Part shown: one piece after another, positions 4,729-35,861 of the stretch
Layout of the letters: each line of letters opens with the position of its first letter
How positions within the stretch are numbered: the stretch's first letter is position 1
IMG/VR virus record: IMGVR_UViG_3300020725_000003
Location: 1-36,602 of that record
DNA from: a virus
Length of the DNA: 36,602 nt
Strand: one strand, 5' to 3'
Translations under genes and position numbers: made by a program
Notes under the pieces: generated by a model
What the model was told of the DNA's origin: nothing
Database searches by the model: none
What the model saw: only the letters and a program-made list of their open reading frames with translations

Positions 4729-4922
4729 TGACATACTATCCAACCAAAAAAGACCGCGCCGAGTTTCATGCTTGGCTACGCGCAATTTTACGCAATCCAG
4801 ACGGTCATATAGTCCGTTGGGCTAATTTCCTAATCAGCCAACACGACTGGTCAGCTAGCAAGCGAATTGAAATCAGCCGTCATCAAACGAAAAGCGGCAA
4901 TCCAGAATTTTACACTTTTTAA
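4728..4922 (+). CDS. small hypothetical early protein
   Basis: A 64-residue protein (MTYYPTKKDRAEFHAWLRAIL...), rich in Arg/His/Trp, with no membrane segment. It starts right after the repeated leader GGAAACCGCGACA and lies downstream of the dyad promoter at 4657, so it is probably the first gene of that regulated early transcript. The family is not recognised. Small soluble early proteins in this position often act on host factors, but nothing in this sequence shows that. Confidence 0.6.
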   Translation: MTYYPTKKDRAEFHAWLRAILRNPDGHIVRWANFLISQHDWSASKRIEISRHQTKSGNPEFYTF

Positions 4923-4933
4923 GGGGGCATATT

Positions 4934-5164
4934 ATGACATTGCAAGAGCTTAAAGCAATCGCCGATCAAGCCGATGAAACCTTTACCAAGGCTTGCGACG
5001 TTCACTATTGCGACGGTCGGTGGGGATACTATCGAGCCGTTGAATGCGACTACCAAGTACCAGAAGAGCTTCACCTTTTGTGCGATCAAGCGCTGAAAGC
5101 AATTCATGCGTTCTATGCCAAGCGTGACGGTGCTAGGGGCTTTTTAGGATCAAGAGGCGTTTAA
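4934..5164 (+). CDS. small hypothetical early protein
   Basis: A 76-residue protein with a helical N-terminus (MTLQELKAIADQADETF) and a Cys/Tyr-rich middle (CDVHYCDGRWGYYRAVECDY). The cysteine spacing (C-x4-C, then C further on) does not match a known zinc motif with certainty. AAGGGGG just upstream is a strong ribosome-binding site. It is in the same early transcript as its neighbours. I do not recognise it. Confidence 0.6.
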   Translation: MTLQELKAIADQADETFTKACDVHYCDGRWGYYRAVECDYQVPEELHLLCDQALKAIHAFYAKRDGARGFLGSRGV

Positions 5165-23393: not shown

Positions 23394-25850
23394 TCAGCGA
23401 GCACGGCTAGATTGGAAAGGCGTTTCCGCGAAGGCAGCATACACATATGTGCCGCCGTTAGCATTGGTATCAGATGCCGAACTATTTCTAATTTTGAAAC
23501 CGTTAGAAAGGCCATCAAGCGTAACAACCGACCCTTCGGCTGCGCTGCTGTTTGCCGAAAGTTCTGCACTTTCTACGTTGTATGTGTCGCGGGACGTATC
23601 AAAAATGTTCCAAGCACCTGTGCTGTCAGAACGCTTAAACATTATCCAACGCGGCCTGAATCCGGTGTAACAGAAAGGCCCATCCGTACTACCATTGCCC
23701 GTGTAGCTTCCGAACGCAGAGAAGCCCGGCACTGCGGCCCAGCAGTAGGCGACTTGAGTAGCGGCATTTGTGTTGACGTTCCCTTGATTGCCAATTGAAA
23801 AGACAGATGAAGTAGGAGAAGTATTATTCCATACCGAAGTATCTGTCGTAGCAGCCGCAGTGTCGTTCAACCGGATGCGGGTGCCTTGACCAAGAGAAAT
23901 ATGGTAACACTCCCAAGGTGTGGCAGCGGAACTACGAGACTTCACAATAATCATAGATGGGACAGCGCCAAGACCATGCCCAACAGTACCTGTTGAACCA
24001 TTACCCGTATAAGTCACCACAGAGAACCCTGCGGTCGTGTTAGCCGACACGGTGGACGTGATGGTGCCACTGGTGTTGGAGACGGTAGAACCAGAGGCTT
24101 TCCATTGCCAACCGACGTAAGACCAACCATTTACGTTATTTTGATTATACGTCGTATTTCTTTGGGCGGTAAAACCATTAGAGTTGAAAGCAGTAATACC
24201 ACCGCCAGAATATTCAGCGGCAGTAGAATCACTGTTTAATAAATTTGAAGTTCCGCGTAATGAATCAGCCAAAATATTTTGCAAATTTGTTGAAGATGCT
24301 CCAGAACCTGATCTTAATTTTGCCCAGACAAAATCAGGTTGGAAAGTTGTGCCAATAGTATTATTGGCGCTATTTAATACTGCAAGAGTGTCGCCGTTGG
24401 CATTACCCGTACCCGTATACAACGTAGCCGCCATATACGCAGCACCATTAGGGACGTTTGACGATGGCAGATTGTAGGTGTTCAGTGCATTGAAGCCCGT
24501 TGGCGGGGTGTAGGTGAATGGCTGTTGGCCGTAATTCACGTTTAATGTTGATGTAGCACCAGAACCGCCAGCACCGCGTACATATGGGTAATAAATATTA
24601 CCTGTTAAGTTGGTAAATTGGGCATTTGTTCCCGTGGATGGAACGCCGCTTTCTGACCAAACACCGTTTTTACCAATCCATATTTTCCCCGCGCCAAGAT
24701 CAACGGCAACCATCATTACGTCGCCGTCTGCCGCAGCAGAAAAAATTGTTGTAGCAGTTGCGCCGTTTTTCTTTCTTACAAGAGGACCAGAAGGCACAAA
24801 TTGAAAACCCCAACAATTAGAATCGCCGTCAGGATTTCCGCTATATAAATTAAAACTATTATTAGCCCAACCACCCATAGCGTCACCAGACGTATTGGCA
24901 GTTTCAATCCATTCATAATACCATTTGCCAGTGGTAAAGCCCATTGTGGCAAGGCGTGTTTGTTGACCTGTGCTATTGCCAGTTGAAGCATATTGCAAAT
25001 TGCCGTTTGCAGTTCCTGTTGAAGAACTGGATGTAATTCCTAACGGATTCAACACAGCATAATTCGCCACCGACGCAGACGTAACCGTAGGGCTATCCGT
25101 CATGCTGTCGTAGGTCGTACCCGCCGTCAGGGAGATGTTGTTCGTCGTCCAGTTATTGCCATTGCCAGACGTGTCATAGCCAAGCGTGGTCGTGGATGTC
25201 GTGTTGCTGAACGGCAGATAGAACCCGTTCGTGCCATAGGTGCCGCTGTACTTAGCAGGTTGCCACACGCCGTTGGTGTCGTATGCACCAAAGCTAGATG
25301 GTGTCAGGGCTTGGCCGTCAATGAAGTTTACTTCGGCCATGTAGCCGTCAAAGTATGCAGTTCCGTTATTACGGCGTCCAATTTCATGAAGGACGTTTAA
25401 GTCGACCCATGTTTGGTAATTTTGCGCAGGGTAAGATGCAGTTGAAAATGACGTAATTTGTGCGCCATTAACATACAATTTCATGCGGTTTGCGGCAGTT
25501 GCTTGAGTGGTATCCATAGCCCAAACAAAATGATACCAAGCAGATGGATCACGAAATACTTGCGTTGTGGTTAACTGGACGGTAGAACTGGCAATAGTAA
25601 CCTGAAGACGGTCGCTTGTGTCAAAAAGCAGAATGTCAATTGTGGTATTTTCTGCGCCAAATAGCCATTGTTCAGCACCCGTCCCAATAGAACCGCGTTT
25701 TAGCCATGCACTCCACGTCCAAGTTGTACGGTTAGATGCACTCGCAGGTGTCCTATTCAAATACGCACTTGCAGACGAACGAAAGCGCAGTGATTTGCTG
25801 ACGCTGTAACCACCAGTAGTAGCTTTTCTAGTCTTGGCTGCGCTAAACAT
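23394..25850 (-). CDS. large receptor-binding fibre/spike: LamG- and SPRY-like domains
   Basis: An 818-residue protein. Residues of about 15-220 form a concanavalin-like LamG domain (YLNRTPASASNRTTWTWSAWLKRGS ... NRMKLYVNGAQITSF ... YFDGYMAEVNFIDGQALTPSSFG). A SPRY-like lectin fold lies at about 255-450 (GKWYYEWIETA ... CWGFQF ... VMMVAVDLGAGKIWIGKNGVW). The C-terminal part (TAGFSVVTYTGNGSTGTVGHGLGAVPSMIIVKSR ... FRPRWIMFKRSD) is a domain repeatedly found in such proteins (DUF7483-like). It is likely to recognise the host surface glycan. It overlaps the HNH gene by 8 bases. Confidence 0.8.
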   Translation of the reverse strand: MFSAAKTRKATTGGYSVSKSLRFRSSASAYLNRTPASASNRTTWTWSAWLKRGSIGTGAEQWLFGAENTTIDILLFDTSDRLQVTIASSTVQLTTTQVFRDPSAWYHFVWAMDTTQATAANRMKLYVNGAQITSFSTASYPAQNYQTWVDLNVLHEIGRRNNGTAYFDGYMAEVNFIDGQALTPSSFGAYDTNGVWQPAKYSGTYGTNGFYLPFSNTTSTTTLGYDTSGNGNNWTTNNISLTAGTTYDSMTDSPTVTSASVANYAVLNPLGITSSSSTGTANGNLQYASTGNSTGQQTRLATMGFTTGKWYYEWIETANTSGDAMGGWANNSFNLYSGNPDGDSNCWGFQFVPSGPLVRKKNGATATTIFSAAADGDVMMVAVDLGAGKIWIGKNGVWSESGVPSTGTNAQFTNLTGNIYYPYVRGAGGSGATSTLNVNYGQQPFTYTPPTGFNALNTYNLPSSNVPNGAAYMAATLYTGTGNANGDTLAVLNSANNTIGTTFQPDFVWAKLRSGSGASSTNLQNILADSLRGTSNLLNSDSTAAEYSGGGITAFNSNGFTAQRNTTYNQNNVNGWSYVGWQWKASGSTVSNTSGTITSTVSANTTAGFSVVTYTGNGSTGTVGHGLGAVPSMIIVKSRSSAATPWECYHISLGQGTRIRLNDTAAATTDTSVWNNTSPTSSVFSIGNQGNVNTNAATQVAYCWAAVPGFSAFGSYTGNGSTDGPFCYTGFRPRWIMFKRSDSTGAWNIFDTSRDTYNVESAELSANSSAAEGSVVTLDGLSNGFKIRNSSASDTNANGGTYVYAAFAETPFQSSRAR

Positions 25851-26472
25851 TCACGGTCCTATAATCAATGTTATATAAAGCGTAAGGCAATTTCATGCCT
25901 TTTACCAACCTTGTTCTTAACAAAGTTTGAGGTATGCCACCAATTTTTGCCCATTCAGCTATAGTGTGAGTTTCAGCGCCATAAGTATATTTTGCATTAT
26001 TAGATTTATTGTTTGCTTGCTCAACAGATGATGCCCACTTGCAATTAGACGGTTCGTAATTACCATCAACATTTATACGGTCAATTGAATACCCATTTGG
26101 CCTTTTTCCCATGTCGGAAATAAAGTTTTCAAACGAATTTATCCAACGATCACAAACAGTTATTCCACGACCACCATAACGAGCGTAGTCAGAATTTTTT
26201 GCATCGTAACAACGCTTTTTCATGGCTTGCCAGACACCGTATTCCGGCGAGTTTACCAATCCGTGTTTTTTAGCTAATTGGCTTAAAGATTCAGCTCTCA
26301 AACAACCGCAAGATTTTGTTCTTCCAGATCTCAAAGAATTGCCATTTACATTAACGGTTTTTCCACAATCACATATGCAAATCCAACCGTATTGTTTGCC
26401 CTTGTTTTCACCTCGATCAAGGACAGACAAACGACCAAATCGTTGCCCAAATATGTTAATTGCTTTTCCCAT
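25843..26472 (-). CDS. HNH/AP2-type homing endonuclease-like protein
   Basis: A 209-residue protein. The N-terminal part FGQRFGRLSVLDR ... WICICDCGKTVNVNGNSLRSGRTKSCGCLR is the zinc-binding module of phage HNH proteins, and YGGRGITVCDRWINSFENFISDMGKRPNGYSIDRINVDGNYEPSNCKWA is the HNH nuclease core (Asp-Arg-Ile, Asn-Gly-x-Tyr-x-x-x-Asn-Cys). A C-terminal helix-turn-helix follows (IAEWAKIGGIPQTLLRTRL). It stands between two fibre genes and looks AT-richer than they are, so it is probably a selfish insertion. Not an intron endonuclease: neither neighbour is visibly split. Confidence 0.88.
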   Translation of the reverse strand: MGKAINIFGQRFGRLSVLDRGENKGKQYGWICICDCGKTVNVNGNSLRSGRTKSCGCLRAESLSQLAKKHGLVNSPEYGVWQAMKKRCYDAKNSDYARYGGRGITVCDRWINSFENFISDMGKRPNGYSIDRINVDGNYEPSNCKWASSVEQANNKSNNAKYTYGAETHTIAEWAKIGGIPQTLLRTRLVKGMKLPYALYNIDYRTVNV

Positions 26473-33300: not shown

Positions 33301-33780
33301 TTACATTGGAGGCATTGGAGGAGCACCGGGAGGACCGCCAGCCGGAGGGGCAGGTGGAGCGCCTGGAGGGTTCATCAATCCGAGATTTGGAGGCGCACCA
33401 GCAATCATACGAGAACCAGGAGTGCCGCCGCCGGCTTGAGGAAGGTTTTGAAGAAGCTGAAGAATTTCAGCATTTTGCAATTCACCGGCCTTTTGTTTCT
33501 TAGGGCCGAGCACCGTAGTCAGTGCTGAGATTGCGTTAATGAGTTTTTGGCCTTCTGGGCTTTCAGATCCGATAGCTGGGAGAGCTTGCTCAATCAAATC
33601 CATCGCCATTGAGACGTTGACGAGAGCTGCTTCTTTAACACCGGCTTTAGGTTCTGGGGTAGACATAGGGGTTGGCATGGGAGGAGGCGAAGAAGGAGGA
33701 GCTTCACCGACAGATACGCCACCTGGGGTTTCACCGCCAGCGCCCTGCATCAATGCCATAAGTTGTGCGTTATCAGCCAT
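33301..33780 (-). CDS. Pro/Gly-rich head-region protein
   Basis: A 159-residue protein with proline-glycine runs at both ends (EAPPSSPPPMPTPMSTP; PPGAPPAPPAGGPPGAPPMPP) and a helical core (VNVSMAMDLIEQALPAIGSESPEGQKLINAISALTTVLG). Proteins of this build, low-complexity tails plus one small helical domain, are frequent between portal and scaffold genes of uncultured podoviruses; role unknown. Confidence 0.65.
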   Translation of the reverse strand: MADNAQLMALMQGAGGETPGGVSVGEAPPSSPPPMPTPMSTPEPKAGVKEAALVNVSMAMDLIEQALPAIGSESPEGQKLINAISALTTVLGPKKQKAGELQNAEILQLLQNLPQAGGGTPGSRMIAGAPPNLGLMNPPGAPPAPPAGGPPGAPPMPPM

Positions 33781-33849
33781 GTCCGTTCCCTTTGAATAGG
33801 TGAAGGGGTATTTTTAGGTTTCCCCCCCTTCAGGGAAATCGCAGTAATA

Positions 33850-33864
33850 ACGGGTCTAACCCGT
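33850..33864. other. short perfect hairpin between the mini-peptide cluster and 33780
   Basis: ACGGGT and ACCCGT flank a 3-base loop. No T run follows on the minus strand (TATTACTG), so it may be an RNA processing or pausing site rather than a terminator. Confidence 0.35.
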
Positions 33865-33871
33865 GTATTAG

Positions 33872-33904
33872 TTAGCGACGTGCCTTACGAGCCTTGCGAC
33901 GCAT
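33872..33904 (-). CDS. 10-residue Arg/Lys-rich mini-peptide 3 (MRRKARKARR)
   Basis: ATG at 33904 is preceded by AGGAG at about 7 bases and the frame ends TAA at 33872. Eight of its 10 residues are Arg, Lys or Ala with seven positive charges. It is the third of three tandem minigenes of this kind. The regular start, ribosome-binding site and stop argue for translation; length alone would not. It could be a DNA-condensing or RNA-binding peptide, or an arginine-codon regulatory minigene. Confidence 0.5.
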   Translation of the reverse strand: MRRKARKARR

Positions 33905-33949
33905 GATGCGCTCCTGTGCTAAGGTTTCAGGGAGGGGTGGTAGCGCCAA

Positions 33950-33982
33950 TTAGCGCTTGTGCTTACGAGACTTACGAGCCAT
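33950..33982 (-). CDS. 10-residue Arg/Lys-rich mini-peptide 2 (MARKSRKHKR)
   Basis: ATG at 33982 has GGAGG 6 bases ahead, and the frame ends TAA at 33950. Nine residues after Met contain six Arg/Lys and one His. It has the same MxxKxRK pattern as mini-peptide 3 (R-K-[SA]-R-K), so the two may be copies of one gene. Its stop lies in a short inverted repeat AGCGC/GCGCT. Confidence 0.5.
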   Translation of the reverse strand: MARKSRKHKR

Positions 33983-34022
33983 TGAAGGCCTCCATCAGTT
34001 AAAGTTAACGTCCCCAACTTAT

Positions 34023-34070
34023 TCAACGACGCTTGCCGCGACGCGAACGCTTTACAGACTTGTAAGCCAT
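34023..34070 (-). CDS. 15-residue Arg/Lys-rich mini-peptide 1 (MAYKSVKRSRRGKRR)
   Basis: The ATG at 34070 overlaps the stop of the 54-residue gene as TAATG, and GGAGG of its ribosome-binding site is within the end of that gene. It ends TGA at 34023. Eight of 15 residues are Arg or Lys. Genuine coupling and the strong Shine-Dalgarno support real translation. Too short for any family assignment. Confidence 0.5.
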   Translation of the reverse strand: MAYKSVKRSRRGKRR

Positions 34071-34234
34071 TATGGCCTCCTTGCCGGTGATCGTGGAGTA
34101 GTGCGAGGCGTATAAGACTTCACACCACTTACTCTATAATCCATAGTAGCGGGTTTTACGTCGCGAGACAACTGGGTAGTTGACGCCCTTGGTTGGTCGC
34201 CCCGAACTGGGTTAATTTGCTGTCCTTTAGCCAT
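34070..34234 (-). CDS. 54-residue basic protein after the portal gene
   Basis: An open frame MAKGQQINPVRGDQPRASTT onward, ending TPRSPARRP. It begins 1 base after the portal TAA and ends in a TAATG overlap with mini-peptide 1. It is basic, proline-rich and probably disordered. Together with the three minigenes it forms a four-gene basic block between portal and head genes. No known family. Confidence 0.6.
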   Translation of the reverse strand: MAKGQQINPVRGDQPRASTTQLSRDVKPATMDYRVSGVKSYTPRTTPRSPARRP

Positions 34235-34235
34235 T

Positions 34236-35861
34236 TTAGCCTTGCTTTTTGCTCATTGGCACTACTTTTTCGCCGCCGCCTTGTGCTTGAGCTGCCGCCG
34301 CTTTGGCATCCATTTTCTTGAGCCGCTCCTTGAGAAGTTGCTTCATTGGAGGATCAAGCAAGTCGATGAGGCTTTCCTTGTCGATGGCTTGCGCTTTGAA
34401 CAGATTAAAAGCCAACGAACGCAGATCTTCCATAAAGATCGGGCTGTTCGAGTGCGCGTCCACTTTGACCACAAAGTCTTTGGTAAACTGTGCAGGGATG
34501 AACTTGTTGCCTTCAGTGTCTTTGAGATCAGAAGGATCGTAGGCTTGCATGATCTTAAGATACAGCGTTGCCATTTTCTCTAATGAATCTTCAACAACCA
34601 TAGCGCGTTTCTTGGCGCGTGAAGATCCAAGACGTGCGAGTTGAGAAGCGTGACCAGCAGAGCGCACACCTTGCTCACCACGGCCAGACAACACAGACGA
34701 AATTCCTGAGACTTCTTCAAACATTGCATCAATTTCTTTAAGCTGTGCGTAAAGATCTTGCGGAATGTTTGGTGCCAGACGTTCTGCTTTTGCATTCGGC
34801 ATGTCAGACGACAGCAAACCACCTGCGCGGTTGAGTGCAAAGTTCTTTTCATCCAAGATGCCGGTGAAGCCCGTGAGAGCTGTCGGCGGGTTAACTTGCT
34901 TGGATAGTAGATCCAGAATTTCCGTCATGCGCCGGTTACGCATTTGCTGAAGGTAAATCAGTTTGGAAACTTCGGATTGTCCCCAGTAGTAATCGTATTG
35001 TGGGTTAGGGCAGATCTGAATGAATGGCAGCTCGCCCTTGAGAAATAGCTCTTCGTTAGGCCGGTCGTAGATGATGACATCTGGCGCGGCGCGAGTAACG
35101 ACTTGATAGTCTTGCGTTTCGTCATTCCAGACATACAGTTCAGTCATTTCCACCGTGTCTTCGGCAATACGCGCTTTCATGCGGTTGTAGCCGTAAAGGT
35201 CGAGGTTGACGGTGCCGTATAGAGTTGGATTAGTCTGCGACATCACGATGCGGTCAACGCCTTCAGGCACATGCGTTGGTTCGTAATTGGCGGTTGTAAT
35301 GCGGCTAATAATGCTGTCGCGTTTCGGATGGTTGTACAAACGCGCCCACAAATCCTGTTTGGTCATGTAGTAAGTCTGGGTCAACGCTTGTTGACGGTCG
35401 GTATATGGTACGTCTTCGCGCAATACGCCCATCGAACCTGGGTCTACCAAGTAAGGATGGATAGACGTGTTGAAGGGTATGAGCTTGATAAAGGTCGAAT
35501 TATAGACCAAGGCCCAAGTAAGGGCCGTAGAGAAAACTTGATCGGCATTCGAGTTGTTCCATTCGTCGTGCAGCGCTTGGTTGAGTGGCGGCACGTAACG
35601 ATGTTGGATGTCATTTGCGCCAGCGCCGAGTGCAATATTGAAGCGCGTTGTTTCTGCGGAGTAAAGGAACGAAGTTAACTGGTCGATGTGCGAAGCGATC
35701 TTGTTGAAGGGTGCAGGTGATTCTTCTGGACCGGCGCCAAACAAAAAGTTAGAGCGCAAGGATGAGTAATCACCCTGACGCTCTGGCTTGGACACATCGC
35801 ACTTGTTAATCAGGTCTAAGTAAAAGAACTCGCGTTCATCTGCTTTAGTTGGAATCCGCAT
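34236..35861 (-). CDS. portal protein
   Basis: A 541-residue protein forming the 12-subunit entry ring for DNA. The N-terminal FLYSAETTRFNI, followed by a wing domain, DEWNNSNADQVFSTALTWALVYNSTFIKLIPFN, and a C-terminal helical crown (GISSVLSGRGEQGVRSAGHASQLARLGSSRAKKRAMVVEDSLEKMATLYLKIMQAY) are patterns seen in podovirus portals. The tail is Gln/Ala-rich (KAAAAQAQGGGEK). It sits between the terminase group and head genes, the usual order. The start overlaps the previous gene by 17 bases. Confidence 0.85.
   Translation of the reverse strand: MRIPTKADEREFFYLDLINKCDVSKPERQGDYSSLRSNFLFGAGPEESPAPFNKIASHIDQLTSFLYSAETTRFNIALGAGANDIQHRYVPPLNQALHDEWNNSNADQVFSTALTWALVYNSTFIKLIPFNTSIHPYLVDPGSMGVLREDVPYTDRQQALTQTYYMTKQDLWARLYNHPKRDSIISRITTANYEPTHVPEGVDRIVMSQTNPTLYGTVNLDLYGYNRMKARIAEDTVEMTELYVWNDETQDYQVVTRAAPDVIIYDRPNEELFLKGELPFIQICPNPQYDYYWGQSEVSKLIYLQQMRNRRMTEILDLLSKQVNPPTALTGFTGILDEKNFALNRAGGLLSSDMPNAKAERLAPNIPQDLYAQLKEIDAMFEEVSGISSVLSGRGEQGVRSAGHASQLARLGSSRAKKRAMVVEDSLEKMATLYLKIMQAYDPSDLKDTEGNKFIPAQFTKDFVVKVDAHSNSPIFMEDLRSLAFNLFKAQAIDKESLIDLLDPPMKQLLKERLKKMDAKAAAAQAQGGGEKVVPMSKKQG

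Follow-up and report, generated by a model that had tools for sequence, protein, structure and literature searches.

Polybasic minigenes beside the portal gene in the head module of an uncultured tailed-phage lineage

Can an open reading frame of ten codons be a gene, and what would a phage use it for when three of them, all rich in arginine and lysine, follow one another close behind the portal gene? The question is raised by the window analysed here, a virus record of 36,602 bases, in which a sequence-only reading had picked out three tandem frames, each with a start, a stop and a good ribosome-binding site. All three are present as described and lie on the minus strand, which had been left unstated. 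The locus is anchored by the portal protein gene (541 aa, 34236..35861, minus strand), which matches the portal family PHROG 1216 (E 7.7e-13) and the Pfam family SU10_portal, PF23899 (E 2.5e-11). Behind it lies ORF54 (34070..34234, minus strand), encoding a basic 54-aa protein with a DQPR...YR motif and without a Pfam or PHROG match; as had been noted, it directly precedes the first minigene. ORF54 is coupled both to the portal stop and to minigene A, its stop overlapping the start of A (TAATG). Minigene A (34023..34070, minus strand) encodes the 15-aa peptide MAYKSVKRSRRGKRR behind the Shine-Dalgarno (SD) sequence AAGGAGG, minigene B (33950..33982, minus strand) the 10-aa peptide MARKSRKHKR behind GGAGG, and minigene C (33872..33904, minus strand) the 10-aa peptide MRRKARKARR behind AGGAG. 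Continuing on the same strand, these are followed by a hairpin, a predicted pseudoknot and a Pro-rich 159-aa head-module gene without a Pfam or PHROG match (33301..33780, minus strand), 3' of which lie genes for a 61-aa basic protein, a scaffold-like 181-aa protein and the major capsid protein. The minigenes are therefore located in the head module, between the portal gene and the Pro-rich, scaffold-like and capsid genes. A promoter and terminator scan of the head region found promoter-like sites to be no commoner than in shuffled sequences.

Evidence that the frames are genes comes from relatives of the portal. Minigenes were defined as frames of 8-24 aa with an ATG start, at least 45% K+R and an SD, located within 1.5 kb downstream of the portal gene on the same strand. 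A tblastn search of IMG/VR with the portal gave 80 loci of 71-100% identity, nearly all of which carry minigenes where there is enough downstream sequence, and further scans reach portals of ~25-30% identity, with minigenes in contigs of ~28 to 66 kb. In an unbiased set, composed of de-duplicated loci selected by the portal only and having at least 600 nt downstream (n=203), portal identity spans from 100% down to ~25%. At least one intact minigene, and up to three, is found in 193 of these 203 distinct loci, so that relatives generally keep the frames instead of showing the frameshifts, lost starts or lost ribosome-binding sites that the sequence-only reading had named as evidence to the contrary. 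Carriers make up 14/14 of the loci with a portal identity of at least 80%, 136/138 of those at 60-80%, 12/15 at 40-60% and 31/36 below 40%. The density of minigenes is 1.23/kb in the 1.5 kb after the portal and 0.0048/kb elsewhere on the same strand, a difference of about 250-fold, and the antisense strand of the same 1.5 kb in the portal-selected loci yields no match by the same criteria. Shuffled downstream regions give 0.004/kb, a count that, like those of codon use and pN/pS below, includes loci found by the minigene pattern in addition to the portal-selected loci that alone enter the 193 of 203. Among the ten misses, relaxed criteria recover a minigene in six (L184, L194, L332, L354, L367 and L396), while L166 has solely an A-like, less basic 20-mer and L169, L171 and L349 have no minigene even by the relaxed criteria.

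The association also holds in the opposite direction. A scan of IMG/VR that was blind to the portal, using a degenerate DNA pattern for an SD, ATG and R-K-x-R-K-x-R with no stop required, found at least 80 loci. All 80 listed matches are free-standing frames of 10-13 aa, and 78 of them lie 114-1173 nt after the same portal family; the other two (L227 and L228) are too close to a contig edge to tell. Within its reach, and among the matches listed, the pattern is specific to this lineage. The portal is shared by hundreds of IMG/VR contigs, and the GenBank phage set contains no cultured phage with it. The lineage is large and known from metagenomes only, and portal matches among genome contigs are MAG contigs from several phyla. 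A near-identity search of GenBank phages gave no match, and a search of the same set with the portal protein retrieved, besides chance-level matches, MW202753 and MW202825 only, both from Manatee Spring samples. Mx8, Mx9 and BUCT555 are related through the capsid, but distantly, and no polybasic minigenes are present in the stretches examined of Mx8, BUCT555, phiEco32 and SU10. The expectation that gene finders would miss such frames is borne out by the two GenBank records, in which the minigenes themselves are unannotated and are overlaid by antisense ORF annotations. The annotated hypothetical proteins cover the minigenes at 4740-5038 of MW202753 (L083) and 25683-25943 of MW202825 (L082), in record coordinates, and are probably spurious.

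The main clade has ORF54, which is absent from distant clades, and two minigenes, A (typically MYKKMKRGRKTRR) and one B-like gene (typically MARKARKGRKARK). Minigene A of the window retains the MYK..KRGRKTRR-type sequence of its relatives, and C is the positional equivalent of the family-wide MARKARKGRKARK gene. The earlier suggestion that the three frames are duplicates holds in part: most relatives have A and one B-like gene, the window and its subclade have three, and the middle MARKSRKHKR is probably the extra copy because C, which adjoins the trailing hairpin and pseudoknot, matches the B-like gene of the relatives by position, an argument made from gene order and sequence without a tree. 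The main clade keeps specific non-basic positions (Tyr2, Gly and Thr), R and K interchange, and some peptides show repeat expansion, for example MARRGRKAHKGHKARKGRKARK. Distant versions include MARKARKARKSRRKSKR (L170), MARRARRAKRASKK and MRKSYRAKRKTRR (both L182), MARRRKHRRGRRK (L370), MIVRNRKGRRHGRK (L342), MTAYKRKGRKGRK (L382) and MSYRMKRKGKRRGR (L194), and some have a non-basic head (MFEFQPLEA-, MLTKTPEAF- or MQTFELAKY-). Homology of the most distant versions is not provable at such length, and what is conserved is position and composition. Three versions of 20-22 aa have no Pfam or PHROG match, the window peptides being too short for such searches, and a PDB scan of one of the three gave chance-level matches only.

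The pattern of substitution shows that it is the peptides that are maintained. Values of pN/pS (Nei-Gojobori) are lowest in the 15-aa group of A (0.15) and highest in its 14-aa group (0.67), where subfamilies are mixed; C has 0.29. The ratios are rough, since pS is near saturation. Third-position entropy is highest in every minigene group. The 25 peptides of the MA... 13-aa group come from 70 different DNA sequences, 23 of which specify the identical MARKARKGRKARK. Codons vary while the peptides hold, so that selection acts on the peptide and not on the codons, and the synonymous-biased change that had been proposed as a check on related genomes was found, together with conservation of start, SD and stop. 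The peptides consist of R (36%), K (29%), G (9%) and A (8%), with D+E at about 0.2%, so that Arg and Lys together account for some 65% of residues. The Arg codons of the minigenes are CGT (50%) and CGC (40%; 90.6% together), as compared with 41% and 33% (73% together) in the large genes of the window, and 94% of the stops are TAA. All 450 collected minigenes have an SD of at least four bases, a figure that holds for the minigenes collected and says nothing of any that were missed, the SD being a search criterion; 418 of the 450 contain GGAG. Strong SDs, optimal Arg codons and TAA stops are the profile of genes predicted to be well translated. The same codon and stop usage lends no support to the idea that ribosomes stall on the Arg codons. 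A link to tRNA-Arg-ACG, which had been raised by its presence in the phage, was rejected: any tRNA occurs in 4 of 27 long records and tRNA-Arg-ACG in 3 of 27, and as nearly all of these records have minigenes the tRNA is not a required partner. Taken together, the sequence evidence shows the minigenes to be authentic, overlooked protein-coding genes of the head module.

The spacer between the last minigene and the Pro-rich gene is predicted to form RNA structures. Just 3' of the C stop lies a hairpin (33845..33870, minus strand; ACGGGT TAG ACCCGT), the stem sequence of which differs among relatives while its pairing is kept in many. A stem of at least six is present in 140 of 189 unique spacers (74%), as compared with 31% of mononucleotide shuffles, and is statistically weaker than the H-type RNA pseudoknot predicted next to it (33801..33838, minus strand). 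The pseudoknot is made up of stem 1 (TTTCCC/GGGAAA), stem 2 (TGAAGGGG/CCCCTTCA) and an A-rich loop 3. It reaches a score of at least 28 in 61.9% of the 189 unique spacers, a set that includes loci found by the minigene pattern with no bias expected on structures, and in 0.8% of dinucleotide shuffles. Dozens of different stem sequences preserve the pairing, and the structure occurs in most main-clade loci. Rfam has no match for either the hairpin or the pseudoknot. A TTGACA box directly follows the pseudoknot in many relatives. In a second clade, the minigenes are followed immediately by hairpins with a CGTCAG loop (L172, L174, L177, L180, L183 and L185), and in L182, L185, L189 and L192 the CGTCAG loop is complementary to CTGACGGAG in the ribosome-binding region or start of the next gene, which suggests a long-range contact between loop and ribosome-binding site. 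With the pseudoknot and hairpin in the main clade and the CGTCAG-loop hairpin in another, no RNA element is common to all lineages that have the peptides.

The surroundings of the minigenes are less constant than the minigenes themselves. Insertions separate them from the portal gene in L168 and L176-L178. The gene inserted in L176-L178 encodes 242 aa (MTDDEAIAIGLDGNRMQSEGKFREAVACHMKLLEHNPSNFGAAFNIAVCYINLEQYQ) and appears TPR-like by eye. Behind the minigenes of L170, L173 and L182-L192 lie unrelated genes; in the distant L194 and L195, the next gene after the minigene is Pro-rich and resembles the one found in the main clade. Overall, the gene after the minigenes belongs to one family in 203 loci, to a second family in five and to three singletons, and in some loci with another next gene the Pro-rich gene may lie further downstream. 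As neighbours change and the peptides stay, the peptides belong to the head module and are not the fixed leader of one gene.

Several explanations compete for these observations. Short K/R-rich frames can arise randomly and A overlaps the stop of ORF54, but the probability that the minigenes are chance open frames, or remnants of a frameshifted longer gene, is very small: it is already contradicted by the enrichment after the portal, the lack of antisense matches, purifying selection, an SD, start and stop conserved for each frame, and a distant clade with minigenes and without ORF54. A different possibility, which we regard as somewhat unlikely, is that the Arg-rich peptides bind the hairpins or the pseudoknot of their own mRNA and thereby regulate the head operon through termination, stability or translation. 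Ten to 15 aa would suffice for an arginine-rich RNA-binding motif, and the structures are placed suitably, with the hairpin and the variable-stemmed pseudoknot following the last minigene in most main-clade loci and the loops of the second clade able to pair with CTGACGGAG where the next gene begins. However, the structures differ among lineages that all keep the peptides, none accompanies the peptides everywhere, and other genes are inserted near the peptides in L168 and L176-L178.

It may also be the act of translating the polybasic frames, by slow passage through the exit tunnel or by coupled unfolding, that sets the expression of the next head gene. The succession of a short frame, an RNA structure and a gene has the geometry of attenuators and of repY/repZ-type control, and about 20 nt separate the end of the pseudoknot from the start codon of the Pro-rich gene. 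This explanation is nevertheless unlikely, given that the Arg codons are optimal, the stops are TAA and Arg and Lys alternate with no run of one regulatory or rare codon. The free interchange of R and K would mean that no single tRNA is sensed; moreover, where minigenes occur in twos or threes, each remains a frame of its own with an SD, peptide-level selection extends to residues besides R and K, and the following gene belongs to several unrelated families. Quite unlikely, too, is a role of the peptides as assembly cofactors whose target is a protein (the portal, the scaffold or the Pro-rich head protein) instead of nucleic acid. The strict linkage to the portal gene, the non-basic N-terminal heads of some distant versions and the net acidic portal (-9) and capsid protein (-7) agree with such a partner, but the Pro-rich (-4) and scaffold-like (-2) proteins are weakly acidic and the peptides drift widely in sequence and length, which is less expected of a specific protein interface.

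Most likely, the minigenes encode small DNA- or RNA-binding peptides used in head assembly; both DNA condensation and RNA binding, as originally suggested, are plausible. The more specific reading that we favour, at slightly less than an even chance, is that the peptides act on phage DNA as packaging or virion peptides. It is proposed that they are freely initiated, polycationic micropeptides of 10-15 aa, abundant and late, which would be unfolded, almost devoid of acidic or bulky hydrophobic residues, and able to bind nucleic acid electrostatically. They would act on the DNA while the procapsid is filled, in the manner of protamine-like packaging or virion peptides and in a role comparable to that of microvirus J or adenovirus mu, but would be made directly as minigene products. 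This reading is favoured by the location of the genes, the signs of high expression, the exchange of R and K, the changes in length, the repeat expansion and the absence of a common RNA target; a charge-based function accords in particular with the R/K interchange and the repeat expansion. A simple neutralisation of genome charge does not fit, as the number of minigenes (one to three) and the total charge (in the examples, sets of about 6 to 21 basic residues) vary without rising with contig size, the contigs of 62-66 kb carrying one. Counting against a packaging role are also the kept non-basic positions and non-basic heads, which suggest a protein partner, the conserved RNA structures beside the minigenes, which suggest regulation at the RNA level, and the few relatives that lack minigenes.

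Among known systems, protein J of phiX174-type phages is about 23-38 aa long, belongs to ssDNA viruses and has a capsid-binding C-terminus. As the DNA-binding protein of microviruses, J covers the DNA and directs it within the capsid (PMC13386984). The minigene peptides would likewise be small DNA-binding head proteins of a phage, but they are 10-15 aa long, polybasic throughout, present as one to three per genome and found in portal-bearing phages, and they are too short for a sequence comparison with J. Adenovirus mu and P6.9 of baculoviruses are both Arg-rich and unfolded and act on packaged dsDNA; mu is released by proteolysis, and P6.9 is about 55 aa long. P6.9 is a protamine-like virion protein (PMC5899202). 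Unlike either, the minigene peptides would be direct translation products. In lambda N, a full protein, an N-terminal stretch of about 22 aa binds boxB; the likeness lies in a short Arg-rich peptide beside RNA hairpins and the difference in that no boxB-like element is common to all minigene loci. The trpL and hisL attenuators and plasmid repY/repZ consist of a short SD-led frame, an RNA structure and a gene, whereas the minigenes have no run of one codon, use optimal codons, are conserved at the peptide level and precede changing genes. The Kuraviruses phiEco32 and SU10 (PF23899) have a distantly similar portal and the order portal, small gene, scaffold and capsid, but the small gene encodes a 78-aa mixed-charge protein, and their first 30 kb contain no polybasic minigene. 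The most likely function of the peptides is hence one known from other viruses, that of basic packaging peptides; if they were regulatory or independent of the virion, the minigenes would be further from known systems.

To our knowledge the minigenes have no counterpart in tailed phages. The impression that protamine-like peptides beside a portal are unfamiliar is supported in that nothing similar turned up in the literature searched, which did not cover the small-gene tables of Fremin et al. 2022; in these papers, no tailed phage is described with conserved polybasic genes of 10-15 aa. Being below the length cut-off of gene finders, the minigenes are misannotated or unannotated in public records, although their position is almost as well conserved as that of the portal itself. 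We judge it an evenly balanced proposition that polybasic micropeptides of 10-15 aa are a hallmark of a major uncultured lineage of tailed phages and serve either in protamine-like packaging or as regulators of the head operon by way of the adjacent pseudoknots. Peptides that condense or guide DNA would amount to a protamine-like system so far overlooked in tailed phages, and peptides with a regulatory role would rank with the smallest regulatory proteins known. The peptides can be made chemically, so their function is directly testable. If this reading is true, the minigenes would be among the shortest conserved protein-coding genes known, and hallmark genes of phages can be ten codons long.
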